In this document: positions 53,520 through 63,810 of the stretch, one piece after another
How the letters are laid out: every line of letters starts with the position of its first letter
Numbering within the stretch: the first letter of the stretch is position 1
Assembly: GCA_903877165.1 (NCBI GenBank)
Contig: CAIRCU010000020.1
Coordinates: forward strand, 1 to 64,000
Direction of reading: 5' to 3'
DNA: 64,000 nt
Source: Methanobacteriota archaeon
GTDB taxonomy: Archaea > Thermoplasmatota > E2 > DHVEG-1
Position numbers and translations under genes: made by a program
Notes under the pieces: generated by a model
Databases searched by the model: none
What the model saw: the letters and a program-made list of their open reading frames with translations, nothing else
What the model was told of the DNA's origin: nothing

Positions 53520-53663
53520 AACGGGCCTGGCGGGAGTCGAACAACCCAACAGGAGAAAAACGGGGCGAAAAACCGCGAAAAAAACCGCTTTGGAATCCAC
53601 AGGTGAACGGGACTATCGATTCTATTCTCACTAAAAGCCTTCTCCACCTTTCTTTCCTTTTTC
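53520..53663 (+). repeat. Repeat C: near-perfect copy of the tRNA-Arg 3' end (candidate attL)
   Basis: Positions 53520-53542 match 63705-63727 at 22 of 23 bases (one g/t difference), in the same orientation, covering the T-arm and acceptor 3' strand of the tRNA. After that the sequence continues like repeats A and B (caacaggagaaaa) and ends in a pyrimidine tract, but does not form a tRNA. This is what the far end of an element integrated at the tRNA would leave. Confidence 0.65.
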
Positions 53664-53669
53664 AAAGAG

Positions 53670-54056
53670 GTGATTATTCTGGATAATTCTGTCTACACAA
53701 AGATGACACGGTGCGAAAAAGAAGTCGCCTTGACGTTGGAAAAACTCGGAATCGAGTGGAGGTACGAACACCCTATCTTCGTCTGGGACGAACAGGGACG
53801 GCCGCGCGTGTGGGCTCCTGACTTCTATCTCGTCCCCTTCGGAATCTACCTCGAAGTCTGCGGTTCAATAACCTTCGATTACACCTACAGAAAGAAGATC
53901 CTCTCAGATAACGGCTATCAAGTCATCTTTCTCCATTTGTACAAAACCTCACGGCATTGGAAAAGATTCTTAGTACACGCTTTAGAATTCTATGTGAAAC
54001 ATCACACAAAGAAACTCGCCTTAGCAAAGAATACTCTTCAAACTAAAATAGAATAA
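53670..54056 (+). CDS. Small nuclease-like protein (PD-(D/E)xK type, altered motif)
   Basis: 128 residues from GTG 53670 directly behind agag; ATG 53703 (MTRCEKEVALTLEKLGIEW) is an alternative. After a helix comes YEHPIFVWDEQGRPRVWAPDFYLVPFGIYLEVCGSITFDYTYRKK, then GYQVIFLHLYKTSRHW. APDFYL plus LEV is the pattern of Vsr/DUF559-like endonuclease folds, but the catalytic ExK reads EVC, so it may be inactive or use another lysine (YRKK). It is the first gene inside the left end of the putative element. Role unknown; a relic of element mobility or defence is possible. Confidence 0.6.
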   Translation: MIILDNSVYTKMTRCEKEVALTLEKLGIEWRYEHPIFVWDEQGRPRVWAPDFYLVPFGIYLEVCGSITFDYTYRKKILSDNGYQVIFLHLYKTSRHWKRFLVHALEFYVKHHTKKLALAKNTLQTKIE

Positions 54057-54091: not shown

Positions 54092-57000
54092 TTACAGTCC
54101 GCTTACGGTGAACTGATATGAAGACACCAGTTGTTTCAAATCCGACCCGACTAAGATGTTGCCGTCGGGGTCGCGGAACGCTGCATAGATGCGATACATC
54201 CCATTCCCATTCTTCAGGTCGTTTCTCTTGATTTTGCCGTTGAAAACGGTGTCAAGGCCGAACTGGTGACTGGCGGTGATCGTCCTGGGCGTCGTCTCAT
54301 GTACGGTATCATTATCAACAATCCAACCGGTTCCAGATTTATAGAACTGCACCTGGATGAGCAGGTAACCTTTGATGTCGGTCGATCCCGTGTTGTTGAT
54401 CTTCGACTGATTGTTGAACAGGATGGTCAGCTTTGGGGTATATTGTCGGTCCGCGTTCCCGGAATAAACTTTGACGTATTCATGGGTGGTTGGTGTCGTC
54501 CCGCTGATGTCGCGGTTGCTGCGTAGGCAGAGTTTTGTCTCTCCGCGTTTCTGCAGCCAGCTATAGTTCGTCAAGGTGATGGTATTATAGCCGGTCCCAA
54601 AACCTGTGGTATTGAGTCCGCCGCCGTTCCCGGAGTAGTGGCTTTTGCCGTAGTCGGCGGTCTGTAGCGGGTCATGGGGGTAGGTCGGCTGGCCGTTCTG
54701 CACCGTGATGGTGAAGTCCGTGGACGAGTTGTCGCTGTATTTGTAGAGGGAGAGGGTGGCGCTGGTGATGTTCGCGTTGTTCGGCAGTGTCGTGGTGTTG
54801 AATAGCAGCATCCCGCGGTAGATATTGTATGTTGGTGGAACTCCGGATGTTTTATCTTGGCCGATGAACAGAGATGTCGCCGTGCTGGAGATGGTTCCTG
54901 AGAGTGCGGTCCATGCGGTGTTGTAGGTTGTACTGGAGCTGTAAATGTATCCATCATTGGTCAGTGAATAGACGGTGATGGTAGGGTCGATGACGATCGG
55001 GAACGTCATGGTAGTGAGTGCTGAGAACGGGAGGCCGGAGAGGAGGTAGGTGTCGCCATTCAGGTGGATGATGCGGTAGACCAGCGGCATCGTCGCGGAG
55101 GTGTTTCCTTGTTCGTAGGCGGTGCCGATGGGGAGTGCGCAGGCGAAGTGGTTGAGGGCGTCTTTGAATTCTATGCCTTGGGTGATGGTGATGTTTCCAG
55201 TGATCGGGTCTTGGCCGTCGTATGAGGTGAGGCCGAGGCTATCGATCTTCGTGGCGAATACGAGGTACGTGTTGTTGCTGAGGCCGTACTGTGAGGGCGG
55301 GTGGCTCTGGAGCAGTGCTTTGGTGGTGTTGCTGAGGGTGATGGCTTCCTTCAACTGCATGTTCTCGTAGGTGTAGGTGACGTTGGTGCCTGTGAAGATG
55401 CCTGGGTAGGTTGCGGTGTTGTTGGTGAATAGTCCTTGGCTGCTTTGTGTGGTTTGGAGGGTGTGGGTGGACCAGCTCGTAGGATCGATGTAGCCGACGC
55501 CTGTGAGTTGGGTGCGGACGACTGTGGTGGGGTCAGTGGATCTGTTGTAGGCGAAGGCGATGGGCCAGGTGCTCTGGATGTTGGGTTTGAAGTAGGCGGC
55601 GTAGGGGCCATGGTCGTTGCCTGCGTAGTACCCGTGTGCGTACGCAAGGCTGTCTTGTGGGAGCAAGGTGAGGGTGGTGTTGATTGGCTGCCAGTCGTTG
55701 GGTGTTGGTTGGTAGTTCACCTGTTCAGGGTAGGAGTCGAGGACGGTACTCCCTGTTGTAGGGTCGTGGAATGTGTTCCATGTTGCTCCTCGATTGATGA
55801 GGGTGTAGTTGTCTGGTGGTGCGGGTGGGTCGGTGAGGTTGATGTATTCGTTGCTGGTGTAGCTGTTCTTGAGGGTATAGACGGCAAGGGTGGCGGTGAC
55901 GGAGACGTTGAAGCTGTGTTTGGATGTTGTGCGTTCGTTGCCTGTGGTGTCGACCGCGGTGATGGTATAGTTGTATCGTCCGGTGAGCCAGGTGTCGTTG
56001 AAGACGCATCGATACGAGTTCGATGATCCACTCACTGCGTTCATGGTGATGTTCATTCCCTCGGCGGTCTGCCATTGTGTCGGCTTCCAGATCTCAGCTT
56101 TCGCATACTCTACATTAGTGGCGTTATCCATGATTGTTGCCTGGATGGTGACATTGTGGCCAAAGCCTAATACTGACGGAGATGCGGAAATCGAGGTGAT
56201 TACCGGTCCGGTGGTATCAATCGTCACGTGGCGTGTTTCGGTGCTGCTGTGATTCCCGGTGGTGTCGATGGCCTGGGCATTATAGGAGTATGTGCCTTCG
56301 GTAAGTCCGGTGAAGTTGTGGGCTAGGTTGTAGTGGCTGTTGTCGTAGGCGGCTTTGATTTCTTCCAGGCTGAGGGCTCTGGTGTAGAGCTGTGGCTCAT
56401 CCAGTAGTCCGTCGAAATGCGACCAGCTTGCATGGTTTTCGTAGGAGAACGAGGTGTTCTGGGTGTTGGTGACGTTGCGGATAGTTCCGGCGATCCCGTG
56501 GTCGAAGGCGCCGTCGACGTAAAGGGAGAGGTTGGTGCCTGTTCTGACGTAGGCGAGGTGGTGCCAGGCGTTGTTTGTTGTCTCTCGTGTGCCGTTGACG
56601 CAGGTGACTTGACCGGCTGCGCTCATGGTGTAGAGTCGTGCGCCGGTGGAAGTGACGCCCATGAAGTAACCTTTGTTGCCGGCTTCGGGCTTGTTGCTGA
56701 GGATGATTGAGACGTTTGAGTAGGTGTTTTGGTGGCTTTTCTCCCAGACCATGAAGGTGAAGTCGCTGGTGCCGAGGTTCAGGCTGGTGTTTTTACCAAG
56801 GTCGACGTAGTCGTCGGTGCCGTCGAAGTCGAGGGCTTTGCCGAATTTCCCGGCGACGATATTGCTGGGTCCGAGGCCGTTGTGGAATCGTCCGAAGCTA
56901 TCATAGGTGGAGTTGTCGGTGACGCCGGTGGTGTTGTAGGCTTCCATGGGCCAGTAGCCTTTGAGGTTGCGGTTCCAGTCGATAAAACCTACGGTTCCTC

Positions 57001-60000
57001 GGGTGTCTTGTATTGTGGTGTTCACGGTGACCCAGTTGTGGTTGAGGACGGAGTTGTTTTGTGGGGTGAACGGGGTGGTGAAGATAATGGTCGGGGTGGG
57101 GACGACTTGGAAGGTGAAACCTGGGAGAATGTTTGTATTGTTGGCGTTGTCGACGATCCAAATGGTGTAGTTGTATTGTCCTGGCTGCCAGGTGTTGTTG
57201 AAGGTGTAATTATAGTCGTACGGTGTGCTGTAGTTGGCCTGCATCGTGTAGTTGTAGGACTGGTTATTGGGATTGGTGATGTTTACGCGGACTGTCTTGA
57301 CGCCGCTTTGGTTATCAAAGAAGTTGGCGCTGATGGTCACAGGGAAACCACAGGGAATCGGGTTTGGGCTTGACTCAACGTCAACGAACCCAGGTATGAT
57401 TGATTCGACGTAAACGGTGTGGTTATAGGTGTTGACGTTGTTTTGGTTGTCGTGTGTCGTGAGCGTTACGTTATAGATGCCTGTGGCGTTGAAGGTGTGA
57501 TTGGCGTTTTGTTCGTATGAGTAGTTACCGTCGTGGAAATTCCAGGTCCAGTTCACTATCGGGTAGGCTCCTTGTGAGAGGTCATGGAAGTACGCGGTCT
57601 GTCCTGGTTGTGGGTTCCCGGTGATGTTGAAGTTGGATCGGAGGATGATGACGGAGATGTTCTGGGTGGTGTTGTAGGTGTTTCCTGCGCCGTTGCGGAT
57701 GGTGAGGTTGACTTTGAAGGTGCCAAGGTGGCTATAGGTGTGTTGGATGTTTTGGTTGTAGGATACAGTGCCGTCGCCGAAATGCCAGGTCCAGTTCAGA
57801 AGTCCGTTTGATTGTGAGGCTCCGCCTATTCCTGCGTTAAATCCTGGGCAGGATGCTGGTTGGCTTTCAGTGATGGTCGTGGAGGCGAATTGGCCTTGGA
57901 AGAGGCTATCCCATGAGGAGACCAATCCGTTGTCTTTCTGGGTGGCAGTGATATTGAGGGGTGGTGACCAGTCGGTGGCGTTGAGGCTGTAGGGGTTGTC
58001 TTTGGCGCGTACTTGTATTTGGTAGGTTCCGGGGAACATCCAGCGGATTTTTTGGGTGCAGGTTTGTCCTGACGGGTGGGGTCCTCCGGTGATCCATCGG
58101 GTGTAGTAGTAGACTCCGAGGCTGGTGTTCCATCGCCATTGGTACCAGATGGGGTTTCCATTGGGGTCGGTGGTGTTTGTTGTATAGTTATAATCTTTGC
58201 CGCTGTATATGGTGGTGTTGCCTGTCGGTCTTCGTGGTGTGGCAGGGGGATTGTTGGGTGGATGGAGAGTAATTTCTCCTGATTGATAGGAGTCGTTTGA
58301 ATATTGTCCATGATCGAGGATCCCAGGCAAGTATACTTCTTTTCTATAACAATAGCCGCTTGAATTGTAGAGGTAGACTGTGAGGTTGTAGAGTCCCGCG
58401 GGTGCGTAGGGTGGTAGTGTGTCAGTGATGTTATCTGTTGTCCCTACGGAGGTGACGGTAGTGTTTTTCTCCGAGGTATATCGGCAGAGGATTGGATAGT
58501 CTTTTGAGGTCAGAATTGCTTTGAGATGGCTGCGGTCTTGTTTGACAGAGGTTTTGATAGTGTAGGTAGCGTTCATGGAGTCATTCCATGTATTGGTTGA
58601 TTTCCAAGGCTTGGAGCTGATATTGGTAAACAGACTATTAGGAAATCTACCAATCGCCAAGATTCCGTATCGTTTGTAATACCACAAGTTACTTAATGGA
58701 AATACTATTCGGTATTCGCCGTTTTCTTTAAGAATTGTGTAGTCACCTACGGCATAACTTATGTTACGGTAGGAACAAATTGGAATCTTAAATATTGGAG
58801 TATTGTTATGGCTCAGATTTAACGCGAGGACATATTTTTCAGAATCGGCATATAACGTCTTCTCGTGGTATGCTGTAATAAGCATGATTGGATTGGCCGG
58901 AGTACCACAAATCGTCATATCTGAAGATGGAACAAATTTTATAGTATTGTTATATTTATCTTTCTTATTCATAGTGCTTGTTATGTTAATTTCTTCTATT
59001 TCAAATCCATTGTCCTCTCGAAAACGGAATAATTTATCGTCACCGGTCTTTCTATGGTTAGGATACACCAAATTACTATCTTCATACCAGAAGCCTCCTC
59101 GTGGATCCCTAGTAAAAGTAAACCAGGTTATGTTACCTGTATAGTTACTGAAATTCCTTGTCCATTTCGGTGTCCCATTTGTATATACAGCATAGATATG
59201 TGGATCTCTGAGGTCTGCAAAATGGGAAGTATTGTATCCATCAAAATATATGGTATCATTTATCAAAGTGGGACTTGCTTGGCTTTCGCCCCAGTACGTG
59301 TAATTCCAGTACTCGGTCAGATTAACCTTATTGTCAGCCGCTGGAGTAACATTAATCGCATAGATCCTTCCAACAACCCTATTAACAGGCAACGTATCCG
59401 GTTTTTTATATTCAGTTAAAATAAAAAATGTATTATTTTTAACACAGATGGAGTTGATTCCTGAAAAATATCCGCTTCCAGTACTTAGACTATCTGTTAT
59501 AATGGAGTTCGACGCGATAATAGAATCCGTAGGATCCCCATTTGTATTATTGCATTGAAATTCAGTGACATTATTTCTTTTCACGACAAAATCTACTTTT
59601 CCGTAGTCTGCTGAATTCGTAGTAAAATTACAATTTTGATATTGGCGTGGAAAAACCCCATATGGAACCGTTGAGTTCCATTCAATTTTTTGGCTTGTGC
59701 TGTTATATCGAAACAGGCAGATAGAGTAAATAAAATAGTTTCCTACTACTTTTATAAAGTCCCCTAGGGTCATTTCAGGAACGCAGTAGTAAGGGTCGAT
59801 GGTTGTATTTTCTCCAAGAAAGATCTCACCTGTTAAATTTCCTGTCTTAACGTCATAGGCAAGAACCGGGCCATCAGCGCAGGGTAAAATGATTGTTTTA
59901 TTTTCTACGATACATGGACTAAAGGGAGTTGGTCCCAGTTTTCTTAATTTAAACTGGCTTATTGGTATTGAATTATGCCATACCACATGGATATTGCTTT

Positions 60001-60493
60001 CATTAGAAGCATTTACTAAAATTATTGTCTCATTATCGCAAGCGACAACTTGGCTGTTGTTGTCAATCATTGGTGAAGAAAATGCTGCCGCGGCGTTTAA
60101 ATACTGAGTATCTGACCATAATCTGTCGCCGTAATAATTGTATAAAATGAGATTATTGTATCCATAGGGAAAATGTTTTGGGAAAAAATAATGAAGAAAA
60201 TCTTCAACGTTGTTAAATGAACAGGCAGCGATTTTACCATTTCCCACGATCCCGTTACCATTGGTGCCCCATGATGCTCCCTTGCCACCGCAACCCCAAA
60301 CAATGCTCTCATTGGATGTTGGGCCGGGCAGCCGAATATTTTCCGTTGTTTGAGGATCTTGATGAATAACTCCACCGCCCCACGGTGGAAGATTAAAATC
60401 CCCTGAACTAAGAGGCTGGAAGATTATCGAAATCAAAAGAATTTCTATAACGATGCAAGAAATTTTTTTCAAATCCTCTTTTCTAATTTTCAT
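54092..60493 (-). CDS. Giant mosaic surface protein: PQQ-like propeller, PKD, LamG and DNRLRE-type domains
   Basis: 2133 residues. A signal region (IEILLISIIFQPLSSGD) is followed by a PQQ-like propeller (about 60-640: DGPVLAYDVKTGNLTGEIF, RIYAINVTP). PKD-type domains come next (WTWHFGDGTVSYNQNIQHTYSH near 900, WTWNFHDGNYSYEQNANHTF near 980), then Ig-like stretches. A LamG/concanavalin domain spans about 1170-1385 (GKALDFDGTDDYVDLGKNTSLN, HHLAYVRTGTNLSLYVDGA). A DNRLRE-like domain lies at about 1845-2030 (SLFIGQDKTSGVPPTYNIYRGMLLFNTT). The last 110 residues (DIKGYLLIQVQFYKSGTGW) form an end domain unlike the GGLG module. The first ~700 codons are much AT-richer than the rest. Probably binds glycans or other cells. 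Confidence 0.88.
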   Translation of the reverse strand: MKIRKEDLKKISCIVIEILLISIIFQPLSSGDFNLPPWGGGVIHQDPQTTENIRLPGPTSNESIVWGCGGKGASWGTNGNGIVGNGKIAACSFNNVEDFLHYFFPKHFPYGYNNLILYNYYGDRLWSDTQYLNAAAAFSSPMIDNNSQVVACDNETIILVNASNESNIHVVWHNSIPISQFKLRKLGPTPFSPCIVENKTIILPCADGPVLAYDVKTGNLTGEIFLGENTTIDPYYCVPEMTLGDFIKVVGNYFIYSICLFRYNSTSQKIEWNSTVPYGVFPRQYQNCNFTTNSADYGKVDFVVKRNNVTEFQCNNTNGDPTDSIIASNSIITDSLSTGSGYFSGINSICVKNNTFFILTEYKKPDTLPVNRVVGRIYAINVTPAADNKVNLTEYWNYTYWGESQASPTLINDTIYFDGYNTSHFADLRDPHIYAVYTNGTPKWTRNFSNYTGNITWFTFTRDPRGGFWYEDSNLVYPNHRKTGDDKLFRFREDNGFEIEEINITSTMNKKDKYNNTIKFVPSSDMTICGTPANPIMLITAYHEKTLYADSEKYVLALNLSHNNTPIFKIPICSYRNISYAVGDYTILKENGEYRIVFPLSNLWYYKRYGILAIGRFPNSLFTNISSKPWKSTNTWNDSMNATYTIKTSVKQDRSHLKAILTSKDYPILCRYTSEKNTTVTSVGTTDNITDTLPPYAPAGLYNLTVYLYNSSGYCYRKEVYLPGILDHGQYSNDSYQSGEITLHPPNNPPATPRRPTGNTTIYSGKDYNYTTNTTDPNGNPIWYQWRWNTSLGVYYYTRWITGGPHPSGQTCTQKIRWMFPGTYQIQVRAKDNPYSLNATDWSPPLNITATQKDNGLVSSWDSLFQGQFASTTITESQPASCPGFNAGIGGASQSNGLLNWTWHFGDGTVSYNQNIQHTYSHLGTFKVNLTIRNGAGNTYNTTQNISVIILRSNFNITGNPQPGQTAYFHDLSQGAYPIVNWTWNFHDGNYSYEQNANHTFNATGIYNVTLTTHDNQNNVNTYNHTVYVESIIPGFVDVESSPNPIPCGFPVTISANFFDNQSGVKTVRVNITNPNNQSYNYTMQANYSTPYDYNYTFNNTWQPGQYNYTIWIVDNANNTNILPGFTFQVVPTPTIIFTTPFTPQNNSVLNHNWVTVNTTIQDTRGTVGFIDWNRNLKGYWPMEAYNTTGVTDNSTYDSFGRFHNGLGPSNIVAGKFGKALDFDGTDDYVDLGKNTSLNLGTSDFTFMVWEKSHQNTYSNVSIILSNKPEAGNKGYFMGVTSTGARLYTMSAAGQVTCVNGTRETTNNAWHHLAYVRTGTNLSLYVDGAFDHGIAGTIRNVTNTQNTSFSYENHASWSHFDGLLDEPQLYTRALSLEEIKAAYDNSHYNLAHNFTGLTEGTYSYNAQAIDTTGNHSSTETRHVTIDTTGPVITSISASPSVLGFGHNVTIQATIMDNATNVEYAKAEIWKPTQWQTAEGMNITMNAVSGSSNSYRCVFNDTWLTGRYNYTITAVDTTGNERTTSKHSFNVSVTATLAVYTLKNSYTSNEYINLTDPPAPPDNYTLINRGATWNTFHDPTTGSTVLDSYPEQVNYQPTPNDWQPINTTLTLLPQDSLAYAHGYYAGNDHGPYAAYFKPNIQSTWPIAFAYNRSTDPTTVVRTQLTGVGYIDPTSWSTHTLQTTQSSQGLFTNNTATYPGIFTGTNVTYTYENMQLKEAITLSNTTKALLQSHPPSQYGLSNNTYLVFATKIDSLGLTSYDGQDPITGNITITQGIEFKDALNHFACALPIGTAYEQGNTSATMPLVYRIIHLNGDTYLLSGLPFSALTTMTFPIVIDPTITVYSLTNDGYIYSSSTTYNTAWTALSGTISSTATSLFIGQDKTSGVPPTYNIYRGMLLFNTTTLPNNANITSATLSLYKYSDNSSTDFTITVQNGQPTYPHDPLQTADYGKSHYSGNGGGLNTTGFGTGYNTITLTNYSWLQKRGETKLCLRSNRDISGTTPTTHEYVKVYSGNADRQYTPKLTILFNNQSKINNTGSTDIKGYLLIQVQFYKSGTGWIVDNDTVHETTPRTITASHQFGLDTVFNGKIKRNDLKNGNGMYRIYAAFRDPDGNILVGSDLKQLVSSYQFTVSGL

Positions 60494-60834
60494 ACTATCC
60501 TCCTCAAAAAAAGGAACGCTTAAGTTTATTTAAATATATCTCACTTTTTTTATTTTTACTTGATAGTCGGCTGATAGTGAGTTTAACTTGAAATTGAATT
60601 GATAAATATTTTGTTTGTTGTTTTAAGATATTTTTTAGTATCTTTGGCTCAATGACCTTTTTAGGCCCATCCCTATTCATCCCAAATGCAGATGGGCGAG
60701 GGTCACTTTTTTATTAATGTTCCTTCTAATGTAATAGCAGCGTCATGACCGATAAATTTTAATAAGTAATAATATATTAAAGAATACGACAATTTCCATT
60801 TCCCATGCTCTATATTGGGTTTGAAGGGATGATC
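60494..60834. other. AT-rich intergenic region with a strong hairpin
   Basis: 341 bases, no gene. tgacc (60653-60657) and ggtca (60701-60705) enclose gcccatc/gatgggc (60665-60671, 60691-60697), and cttttttatt follows. This looks like a terminator or small RNA, though no plus-strand gene precedes it. taataatatatta (60764-60777) is the TATA region for the NosD-like gene. Confidence 0.4.
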
Positions 60835-61830
60835 ATGAAAGCGAGATGGTTAACAGTTGGACTATTTTTGATTCTTGTTATTACCTGTCTGGGTCCTGTT
60901 ATTGCCCAAAATATTGAAAAACAACCGAGATCAACCTTAGGAGGCAAATGGTGGTACGTCGGCGGCACAGGACCAGGGAACTATACTATCATCCAGAACG
61001 CTGTAGATAACGCTAGTAATGGAGACACCGTCTTTGTCTACCATGGGACGTATAATCAAAAACCAGGCTCTTTAGAATGTGTCTGGGTTTATAAGTCAAT
61101 TTCTCTCATTGGTGAAGACAAGAACATCACAATCATTAGGGGAAACCAGGTAGGCGATGTTATCCGAGAACTCGCTGGCGATGTGACCATCACCGGATTC
61201 ACCCTTGAGAACGCTGGCACTGGGACTACTTCAGGCTTAGCCCTTGACATCTACAAATCTAACGGCATGGGAACCATCAGCAATATCTCAATCCACGACA
61301 ACATCATTGCCAATAATGAAAATGCCATGTGCATGTTCGATTGTAATAATGCATCCTGCTTCAATAACATCTTCCTGAATAATAGCTATAATTTAATTAT
61401 TTCACGAAGTATATATTGCTCAATAAATCACAACCTTTTCTATAAGGGAGGGGGCGTGAATATATATCTCGAGGATTACCCTAATTTCATTAATTTTACT
61501 GGCAATGAATTCAGAAATACCTATTACGGACTCGTAATCCAAACCAGTATGGGAGTCTTGATTCATGCCAATAACTTCATTAACAATACCAGCCCAGCAC
61601 GGTTCAACAAAGAAATAGGCTTTTTAGGGCTCCTCCATAATGCGCCTCTCTACAAGCAACAATGGAGTCAAAACTACTGGAGCGACTGGAACTCGACCAA
61701 CCCCCGACCAATCCCAGGCACCCTATATATCCTATTCGGTGGCATCTTTGGCCTTGAATATCGACTTCCCGTTCCGGTGCGGGAATACGACCCAGACCCA
61801 GTCCAAAACCCTTACAACTACTTTCCATAA
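60835..61830 (+). CDS. NosD-like parallel beta-helix surface protein
   Basis: 331 residues from ATG 60835 (MKARWLTVGLFLILVITCLGPVIAQ), the start that gives a clean signal peptide. YVGGTGPGNYTIIQNAVDNASNGDTVFVYHGTYNQ is the usual opening of archaeal NosD/pectate-lyase-like helices. Repeated turns follow (ISIHDNIIANNENAMCMFDCN, NIFLNNSYNLII, NEFRNTYYGLVI, HANNFINNTSPA). The end WSQNYWSDWNSTNPRPIPG, then YDPDPVQNPYNYFP, is also typical. These proteins bind or cleave polysaccharide; the substrate is unknown. The gene is AT-rich like the neighbouring first third of the giant gene, which sets this block apart. Confidence 0.82.
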   Translation: MKARWLTVGLFLILVITCLGPVIAQNIEKQPRSTLGGKWWYVGGTGPGNYTIIQNAVDNASNGDTVFVYHGTYNQKPGSLECVWVYKSISLIGEDKNITIIRGNQVGDVIRELAGDVTITGFTLENAGTGTTSGLALDIYKSNGMGTISNISIHDNIIANNENAMCMFDCNNASCFNNIFLNNSYNLIISRSIYCSINHNLFYKGGGVNIYLEDYPNFINFTGNEFRNTYYGLVIQTSMGVLIHANNFINNTSPARFNKEIGFLGLLHNAPLYKQQWSQNYWSDWNSTNPRPIPGTLYILFGGIFGLEYRLPVPVREYDPDPVQNPYNYFP

Positions 61831-61887: not shown

Positions 61888-62184
61888 TTAGTTGGTTTTT
61901 GTTAGGGGCGAGGTATGCGAAATTACTTCCTCCATCACTTGAAGATCAAATTTAAGCTTCGATTGATAATGATTAAAGAGAACATTAGGTAAGGTGAGGT
62001 AAGGAATGCCTTCAGTGCAGCATATATCTAGTATTTTTTGAATCAATTTTTGATAATGTGGATTTGCTTTTTCTTCATCTGATACTAGTATAGGGTGCCC
62101 GCCATCGTTTTGAACCTCAATGCAATAGGCTACTAAGTATAAATCAGCCCATCTTTGCAAGTATTTTTGCCTCTCCTGAATCAC
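61888..62184 (-). pseudogene. Truncated nuclease-like ORF
   Basis: 98 residues from GTG 62184. The frame stays open about 34 more codons upstream to a TAG and still reads like protein (RLIDEHIIPENQRIYFPIETQ) but without a start codon, so the 5' end is probably lost. WADLYLVAYCIEVQNDGGHPILVSDEEKANPHYQKL looks like the D...ExQ core of a small endonuclease fold, with the catalytic lysine changed. The AT-rich bases match the adjacent NosD-like gene. A second nuclease-like ORF lies at the other end of the element. Low certainty that anything is expressed. Confidence 0.4.
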
Positions 62185-62341
62185 CTGAGTTTCAATGGGA
62201 AAATAGATCCTTTGATTCTCTGGTATTATATGCTCATCAATAAGCCGATCAACGACAGGGAATAAACCAACCTACATCAACAGATTTGAATACTTTCAGT
62301 CACCCTATTAAATATAATAAAGAAAATAATTATTCACATCT

Positions 62342-63745
62342 ATGGAAGATGACCACCAGAGTGCTACGAGCACCCTGGTGGCCTGGAGCCATGATAATAT
62401 GAGTATCACAGCCCCGTGGATGATACAAGAAGAAAGCTCTATTAAACATTATTCAACCCACAAACACACTCAGACCACCATCTCTTCATTCTCTCACCTA
62501 TCAGACTCCTACAAAGCCAAACCAACGAATGGTTTAGCAGGAGGTAGACACCAAGAATGGAAACCAACGATACCCAACCCAGGCAAGCATACTATCGACT
62601 TTCTACAACCACCGAGCATTACTATGGAGGACTACATCGATTTAATCCTCAAGAAAGTCAATAGAATCGATTTCCCCATCATACTTGACCCCACCAAGGC
62701 ATCCTTCGACGACGTCGCCATCCACGCAATCCTTCGGCAAAGGATGAAGAAAACCACAGTCGCCAAACGCATCACCTACGCCCGCTACATGGAAAAACAT
62801 CACGCCCCCGTAGATTTCAGACACCCAACCTACGAGAACTTCATCCGACATATGGACTACCGCGAACAAATCGAAAACGCAGGATTCGGTGCCCTCGGAC
62901 ATGAATGGAAGACCATGCGCATGTTCCTCCGCGCCTACGGCCTCTCGAAATGGGACTACCGACCACCCTCAGCGCCCTACTACAAGGTTAAGGTAATACC
63001 CTTCCCTGAACAAATCTCCGAGATCCTACGCCTCACCTACTCCGAGGATGAGTACGAAAACGCCCTCATCCAGTACATCCTCACCCACAATTTCATCATC
63101 GGATGGAGAATCCCCAGCGAACCCTCAATTATGAAACTCAGTGACGTAACGATAGACGACCATGACCGGGGTTTCATTAAGATTACGGAGCCAAAGAAGA
63201 TGAATTCCACGAGAATCGTGACGCCGGTTGAGATTATGACGAACCATCGTCGTAAATCGTTCAAGAACTGGATTGACAGCTGGCGACCAAAGGTGGCAAA
63301 CCAATACTCCAAGGACTTTCTCTACCTCAAGCATGATGGAACCCCGTTCTGCAAGGAGTCGCTTCGAATGTTCCTCAACAGGAAAGCTTCGCCTATAATC
63401 CAGACTGTAATCCCGAAGTATCACAACTATGTCGCACGGGATTTCTGTGCTATAGCCCGCCTTATCCGGACTAAGATCCAGACAGGAAGCTTTGATGAAT
63501 TCGAAGTCAAGGAATGGCTCGGGCACACCAAGATCCAAACCACAATGTGCTACATTAAGGACGCAAGCCACTACTACAAACTTGCACCTTACGATTGGAT
63601 TAACCGCGTCCTCAAAGCTGCCTCGATAAACAGCGAGGAAAACGCGGAAATTCGAAAAGGCGAAAAAGTAGGTGCTTTCGACCCAAATCCCTCCGAGAAG
63701 AGGGAACGGGCCTGGCGGGATTCGAACCCGCGGCCTACAGCTTAG
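62342..63745 (+). CDS. Tyrosine recombinase/integrase running into tRNA-Arg
   Basis: 467 residues. The N-terminal ~85 residues are low in structure; a core-binding region follows (KKTTVAKRITYARYMEKHH). The catalytic domain shows Arg near 255 (IIGWRIPSEPSIMKLSD), Lys near 283 (ITEPKKMNSTRIV), then YHNYVARDFCAIARL, where the HxxR box is loosened to HxxxxR, WLGHTKIQTT for the second His, and the nucleophile in MCYIKD near 403. The last 13 codons (RERAWRDSNPRPTA) are the translated complement of the tRNA 3' half, so the native end was set by integration. It faces the tRNA, as in elements that use a tRNA attachment site. Confidence 0.85.
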   Translation: MEDDHQSATSTLVAWSHDNMSITAPWMIQEESSIKHYSTHKHTQTTISSFSHLSDSYKAKPTNGLAGGRHQEWKPTIPNPGKHTIDFLQPPSITMEDYIDLILKKVNRIDFPIILDPTKASFDDVAIHAILRQRMKKTTVAKRITYARYMEKHHAPVDFRHPTYENFIRHMDYREQIENAGFGALGHEWKTMRMFLRAYGLSKWDYRPPSAPYYKVKVIPFPEQISEILRLTYSEDEYENALIQYILTHNFIIGWRIPSEPSIMKLSDVTIDDHDRGFIKITEPKKMNSTRIVTPVEIMTNHRRKSFKNWIDSWRPKVANQYSKDFLYLKHDGTPFCKESLRMFLNRKASPIIQTVIPKYHNYVARDFCAIARLIRTKIQTGSFDEFEVKEWLGHTKIQTTMCYIKDASHYYKLAPYDWINRVLKAASINSEENAEIRKGEKVGAFDPNPSEKRERAWRDSNPRPTA

Positions 63746-63781
63746 GAGGCTGTCGCCCTATCCAGTCTAGGCTACAGGCCC
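63707..63781 (-). tRNA. tRNA-Arg (anticodon CCT)
   Basis: 75 bases without intron or encoded CCA. The acceptor strands GGGCCTG and CAGGCCC pair fully, the D-arm is GCC...GGGC, and the anticodon arm is ACAGC-CTCCTAA-GCTGT, which places CCT at 34-36. The T-arm is GCGGG-TTCGAAT-CCCGC and the discriminator G. A TATA box (ttttatag at 63811-63818, minus strand ctataaaa) lies 30-37 bases ahead. Its 3' half overlaps the recombinase ORF. Confidence 0.95.
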
Positions 63782-63810
63782 ATGCGCGTCACTGACAACA
63801 GGAACGAGTT

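Follow-up and report, generated by a model that had tools for sequence, protein, structure and literature searches.

Several described systems lie close to the locus analysed here. Thermoprofundales (MBG-D) archaea are reported to have extracellular C25 and M28 peptidases as well as PKD-domain proteins (PMC6461988), and the DNRLRE domain is known from archaeal surface proteins (PMC2447325). The others are beta-propellers of the BamB/PQQ type, polymorphic toxin systems with Hint or pretoxin modules, and archaeal integrative elements that target tRNA genes by means of tyrosine recombinases. Steps in base composition inside a gene are usually taken as scars of recent fusion; the literature on such intragenic GC mosaics yielded no archaeal precedent, and in the literature searched we found no description of a conserved tail common to different heads.

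The window analysed is a 64,000-nucleotide stretch of the draft genome of an uncultured thermoplasmatote, and it contains a gene for a giant secreted protein whose base composition changes abruptly. A preliminary description had read this change as the fusion, inside a mobile element, of a foreign propeller to a resident PKD–LamG stalk. Set beside the systems named above, the gene is a modest variation on a known kind of system. Comparison with its relatives brings to light giant archaeal surface proteins that form a family, in which one conserved tail is joined to exchangeable heads (propeller, peptidases, phosphoesterase).

Modular organization of the giant protein

The gene and its modules are as follows.

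54092..60493, minus strand: giant secreted-protein gene, 2133 aa, intact, with an N-terminal hydrophobic signal-like segment (open reading frame and Pfam domains)
58634..60493, minus strand: head, PQQ/BamB-type beta-propeller, residues 1–620, GC3 0.32 (homologues, AlphaFold2 model, Foldseek, GC3 segment)
57800..58633, minus strand: linker and Fn3-like module, residues 621–898, intermediate GC3 of 0.54
57104..57799, minus strand: PKD repeats and Ig-like domain, residues 899–1130, GC3 about 0.68 (Pfam)
56294..57103, minus strand: LamG-like (Laminin_G_3) region, residues 1131–1400, GC3 0.76 (Pfam PF13385, E 2e-22)
54095..56293, minus strand: conserved tail, residues 1401–2133, DNRLRE/disaggregatase-repeat-like, GC3 0.72 (alignment, weak Disaggr_repeat match, DNRLRE match on the L067 tail)
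54095..54415, minus strand: C-terminal tail submodule of ∼105 aa, from about residue 2027

The AlphaFold2 model of the head is of moderate confidence (pLDDT 71.7, pTM 0.74); against the PDB, Foldseek matches it to the propellers of BamB, quinoprotein dehydrogenases and Rv3035, with E values down to 8e-12 and hundreds of further matches. As modelled, the head is a beta-propeller of the BamB/PQQ type. Unlike these proteins, it is secreted and joined to a giant stalk; identity is about 10%, and any PQQ active site would be putative. Pfam PQQ_2 scores 15.8 bits on the window head, below the gathering score of 27.6, which a relative (L060) clearly exceeds with 37.6. The M28 and C25 heads of other relatives recall the Thermoprofundales peptidases, whereas the window head is a propeller.

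The tail, ∼700 aa long, is common to relatives, often together with PKD or LamG, and other genomes also carry its C-terminal submodule apart from the remaining tail. The tail of a second giant in the same genome (L067) matches the NCBIfam DNRLRE model NF033679 at 25.5 bits, below the cut-off of 34, and no match to this model was listed at E 0.1 for the window protein itself. The tail further differs from DNRLRE/CBM96 proteins in its length, theirs being a 200-aa domain, and its binding of glycan is a prediction. It is probably a binder of polysaccharide or of the cell envelope. Folds and weak domain matches together suggest a surface or secreted ligand-binding protein, in which the head would meet the substrate while the tail would hold the protein to glycan.

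Composition along the gene

GC in sliding windows is about 0.36–0.38 at 58500–60500 and mostly 0.50–0.58 at 54250–58250, and a two-segment fit of GC3 gains 129 units of log-likelihood, where 200 shuffles gave at most 8, confirming that the composition changes inside the 2133-residue gene. The change was also correctly placed near the end of the propeller, since homology of the head stops at about residue 600–617 and the first GC3 break falls at codon 621 (95% support 599–643). It is not, however, the single switch first reported: the best fit by BIC has three segments, with GC3 of 0.32 for codons 1–620, 0.54 for 621–898 and 0.73 for 899–2133 (three over two, p about 0.016), and the second break, at codon 899 (95% support 773–930), lies near the first PKD domain.

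The first two codon positions keep nearly the same GC along the gene, so the step is mainly a change in synonymous codons. Amino-acid composition as its cause was ruled out, the change being present within two-fold pyrimidine codons, where C takes a share of 0.32 in head codons against 0.77 in those of the tail. Directly past the stop codon, GC drops.

Fragmentation of the draft into 57 contigs would leave room for an assembly artefact in which contigs of two organisms were joined. This explanation is very improbable, as the reading frame is open across 2133 codons and the joints recur in independent assemblies (head–linker–Fn3–PKD in G003, LamG–tail in G038 and G042); moreover, the two other tail genes of the same genome (L066 and L067) are also stepped.

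The gene against its host genome

The GC3 of the head is below that of all 73 ordinary host genes sampled first, and within the lowest few percent of 295 host genes when the sample was enlarged and enriched for surface-gene clusters; against the ordinary genes of the genome, the head looks compositionally alien. Stalk and tail together are host-like, at 0.72 against 0.67–0.70 for the host. In the tail tree, the window tail forms a group with the two other tails of the genome at support of 100/100, which makes this tail lineage a resident one. No second copy of the head was found elsewhere in the genome. These results favour the proposal of a foreign propeller on a resident stalk, although its first half is weakened because AT-richness alone does not prove foreign origin: about half of the Fn3/PKD surface genes belonging to this genome are AT-rich over their whole length (GC3 0.33–0.46) and the rest are GC-rich, making two compositional classes (contigs C44, C15, C54, C14 and C23; L005–L020). 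The head could belong to the resident AT-rich class.

Step strength was compared among 143 host genes of at least 400 aa in 530 kb, about a quarter of the genome and a sample enriched for surface-gene clusters. The three tail genes took the top three places (129, 102 and 25; next 22). General GC-richness of Fn3/PKD modules was rejected for this genome (module minus rest −0.035, p 0.06). Because such modules elsewhere in the genome are not richer in GC3 than the remainder of their own genes, the effect is a property of the tail family and not of stalk domains generally.

Relatives of the head and of the tail

The comparison set comprised one genome per species and one genome of this genus, drafts with broken contigs in which several of the relatives' genes are truncated. 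A genome scan with a single tail sequence as query gave no matches; the tail alignment as query gave 28 loci, mostly in Thermoplasmatota drafts. Named relatives are mostly from Thermoplasmatota, Thermoplasmata or Euryarchaeota draft genomes. A viral origin was rejected, there being no tail relative in viral contigs and no match of the head in phages.

Recent fusion of a foreign AT-rich propeller to a resident PKD–LamG stalk would explain a head so far under the host in GC3, a tail resident by tree and the lack of another head copy. It is nevertheless unlikely. The order head–linker–Fn3–PKD is kept in two other genera, in an ORF of 1712 aa in G003 and in pieces in G044, at 40–50% identity to the window gene; the joint is therefore old, and the idea that the fusion was made inside this element is not supported. 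The linker–PKD part is also nearer to these two relatives than to the tail's nearest relatives. A composition step does stand at the head joint of the window gene, but the joint itself is not unique to this genome or element. A full-length homologue of uniform composition and the same domain order had been named as evidence against the fusion, and the G003 ORF (on C48) supplies the order and a nearly flat GC3 (0.22–0.36), but not the length, as its contig stops short of the point where LamG or tail could follow. Stand-alone relatives of the head, ∼480 aa long and near host GC3, occur in G033, G035 and G038.

The heads of tail-bearing relatives are unrelated to the window head and comprise an M28 peptidase, a C25 peptidase and a metallophosphoesterase; a WD40-headed relative (L090) has in common the stalk and only the C-terminal submodule of the tail. 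Similar GC3 steps are found in most tail-bearing relatives (for example L054, 0.26 to 0.57; L056, 0.23 to 0.57; L064, 0.34 to 0.63; L068, 0.25 to 0.48; L077, 0.27 to 0.70), with little or no step in L063, L082, L087, L090 and L059. L067 and L066 of this genome have the tail at the N-terminus and step the other way (0.75 to 0.36 and 0.73 to 0.50), by which a simple 5′ to 3′ codon gradient was ruled out. The breaks of several relatives fall within the Ig or PKD region, away from the head border, and those of L066, L067 and L056 map onto residues 2002–2037 of the window gene, approximately the start of the C-terminal submodule. Since tail-linked steps recur with unrelated heads and follow the direction of the tail, the scar of a single fusion is unlikely. 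Synonymous third-position identity between genomes is about 0.35–0.60, near saturation, which also argues that the step is not the scar of one recent fusion.

In 12 of 12 genomes, tail GC3 equals or exceeds that of the far end (p 0.0005); in 11 of them it is above host GC3 (p 0.001), which it tracks (rho 0.71), with the reservation that these rank tests overstate independence, the genomes being related members of one family, and that host baselines comprise 7–40 kb per genome. A pure preference for C-ending codons was ruled out: in the present genome C exceeds the host and G does not, yet in most other genomes both rise. Two giants, in G038 and G010, lie beside genes that read, by eye, as a ribosomal set (L19e–L18–S5–L30); they are probably vertical, and their step is less steep (0.33 to 0.49 for the first, 0.29 to 0.39 for the second).

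That tails exceed their hosts in AT-rich genomes, and that a genome holds several tail copies, would also follow if GC-biased gene conversion among repeated tails upheld their GC3. We consider this improbable: the copies are mostly 60–80% identical, too distant for easy conversion, the excess has no obvious relation to copy number, and GC drops immediately past the stop codon.

Within the tail, GC3 is higher at conserved than at variable sites (pooled odds ratio 1.64; C vs T 1.92), and the same test in heads gives hardly any effect (1.05–1.29). Variable tail sites are also high in GC3 (0.48), so conservation accounts for only part of tail GC3.

A proposed model of exchangeable heads on a conserved tail

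We favour, with a probability of about 0.6, the reading that the product is a giant, modular secreted protein of Thermoplasmatota, combining AT-rich exchangeable heads with a conserved tail whose codon usage is host-like or richer, the step being a family-wide pattern. Its architecture would be an exchangeable N-terminal head, a linker, a stalk of Fn3, PKD, Ig and LamG domains, and the conserved ∼700-aa DNRLRE-like tail. Heads would be exchanged or would diverge more quickly, arriving or being retained with AT-rich codons; the tail would have been resident longer and under stronger synonymous constraint. Head and tail should then differ in GC3 wherever they are joined, and the step of 0.40 in the window gene would be inflated by a GC-rich genome and by the position of the gene on a mobile element. 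In prokaryotes, newer genes are reported to be less codon-optimised, and ancestral genes to have a C bias in pyrimidine-ending codons (PMC7374057). The excess of GC3 at conserved tail sites fits selection for translational accuracy, which would be only part of the cause because the variable sites are GC3-rich too.

A more tentative extension is that synonymous codon usage is kept at different set-points for each module of one gene, with GC3 of the tail core elevated across genomes of widely differing composition even though synonymous sites are close to saturation; if true, such set-points would imply selection, or a local mutational process, at the scale of a protein module within a gene. Since a step can accompany one and the same conserved module across many genomes, an AT-rich half of a gene is weak evidence for foreign origin.

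The element and its neighbours

The flanks of the gene contain the following features.

53520..53542: att-like direct repeat, left copy, 23 bp, 22/23 identical to the right copy
53670..54056, plus strand: small nuclease-like protein, 128 aa, intact, GC3 0.53 (weak Phage_endo_I similarity)
60805..61830, plus strand: NosD/beta-helix-like secreted protein, divergent neighbour of the giant, GC3 0.46 (Pfam)
61888..62271, minus strand: DUF4411-like remnant lacking a start codon, located between NosD-like gene and integrase
62342..63745, plus strand: tyrosine recombinase (integrase), 3′ end reading into the tRNA, GC3 0.59
63705..63727: att-like repeat, right copy, at the 3′ end of the tRNA gene
63706..63782, minus strand: tRNA-Arg(CCT), integration target

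Integrase, tRNA target and flanking direct repeat are thus all present, and on these sequence features the giant is carried by a 10.2-kb element integrated at tRNA-Arg. The overlap of integrase and tRNA and the 23-bp repeat at both ends are as in other archaeal tRNA-targeted elements with tyrosine recombinases; the difference is the cargo, a giant secreted protein with a NosD-like protein. Mobility of the element is a prediction from its sequence. The window integrase scores below the Pfam cut-off and its L067 homologue above it. Viral and phage collections gave no match for the element parts tested. The nuclease ORF, earlier called broken, is intact, and the broken ORF is the DUF4411-like remnant; the AT-rich style attributed to the neighbours is shared only in part, as the GC3 values listed indicate.

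The integrase family is present in 35 of 45 family genomes, and beside tRNAs with varied cargo in 9 of 10 loci sampled in relatives; the nuclease-like protein, found in 17 of the 45, is a recurrent element gene. The divergent pair of giant and NosD-like gene occurs also in G044 (L061). A sister element in the same genome (L067:3304-10727, G000:C35) has an integrase at tRNA-Val, a NosD-like gene, a giant of 1372 aa whose 3′ end the NosD-like gene overlaps, and a nuclease-like gene; a repeat search found no second att repeat for it.

So widespread an integrase, the AT-shifted other genes of the element, and a tail gene with GC3 of about 0.34 and 0.63 in G044 (host GC3 0.36) would suit a single import of the complete element, already stepped, out of a moderately AT-rich relative whose tail genes had a low head and a high tail beforehand, the tail matching its present host by coincidence. 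We regard this as unlikely: the window tail groups with its own genome's tails (100/100) and not with those of another genus, and two independent elements would need the same history. At times tail-bearing giants are carried on tRNA-integrated elements, a route by which sediment archaea may alter what they bind or digest.

A Hint-like segment lies inside an apparent propeller after the tail in L067 (5965-10083; PT-HINT 27.5 bits, cut-off 27.7) and L066 (1-2746, by likeness to L067), and may, from its sequence, be an intein-like or pretoxin processing unit. An 855-aa protein of G003 (L060:9012-11579, C13) has a PQQ propeller followed by a Hint-like module. These segments, and a conserved trunk with an exchangeable end, recall polymorphic toxin systems; in contrast, a Pfam search of the window protein found no C-terminal toxin, Hint or other processing domain, the part exchanged is the N-terminal head, and no immunity gene was recognised. 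A transposase-like ORF of 537 aa, judged by eye, adjoins the start of the tail-bearing gene in L066 (3158-4771). Integrase genes of the same family (L189–L198) are often a little higher in GC3 than the AT-rich genes beside them.
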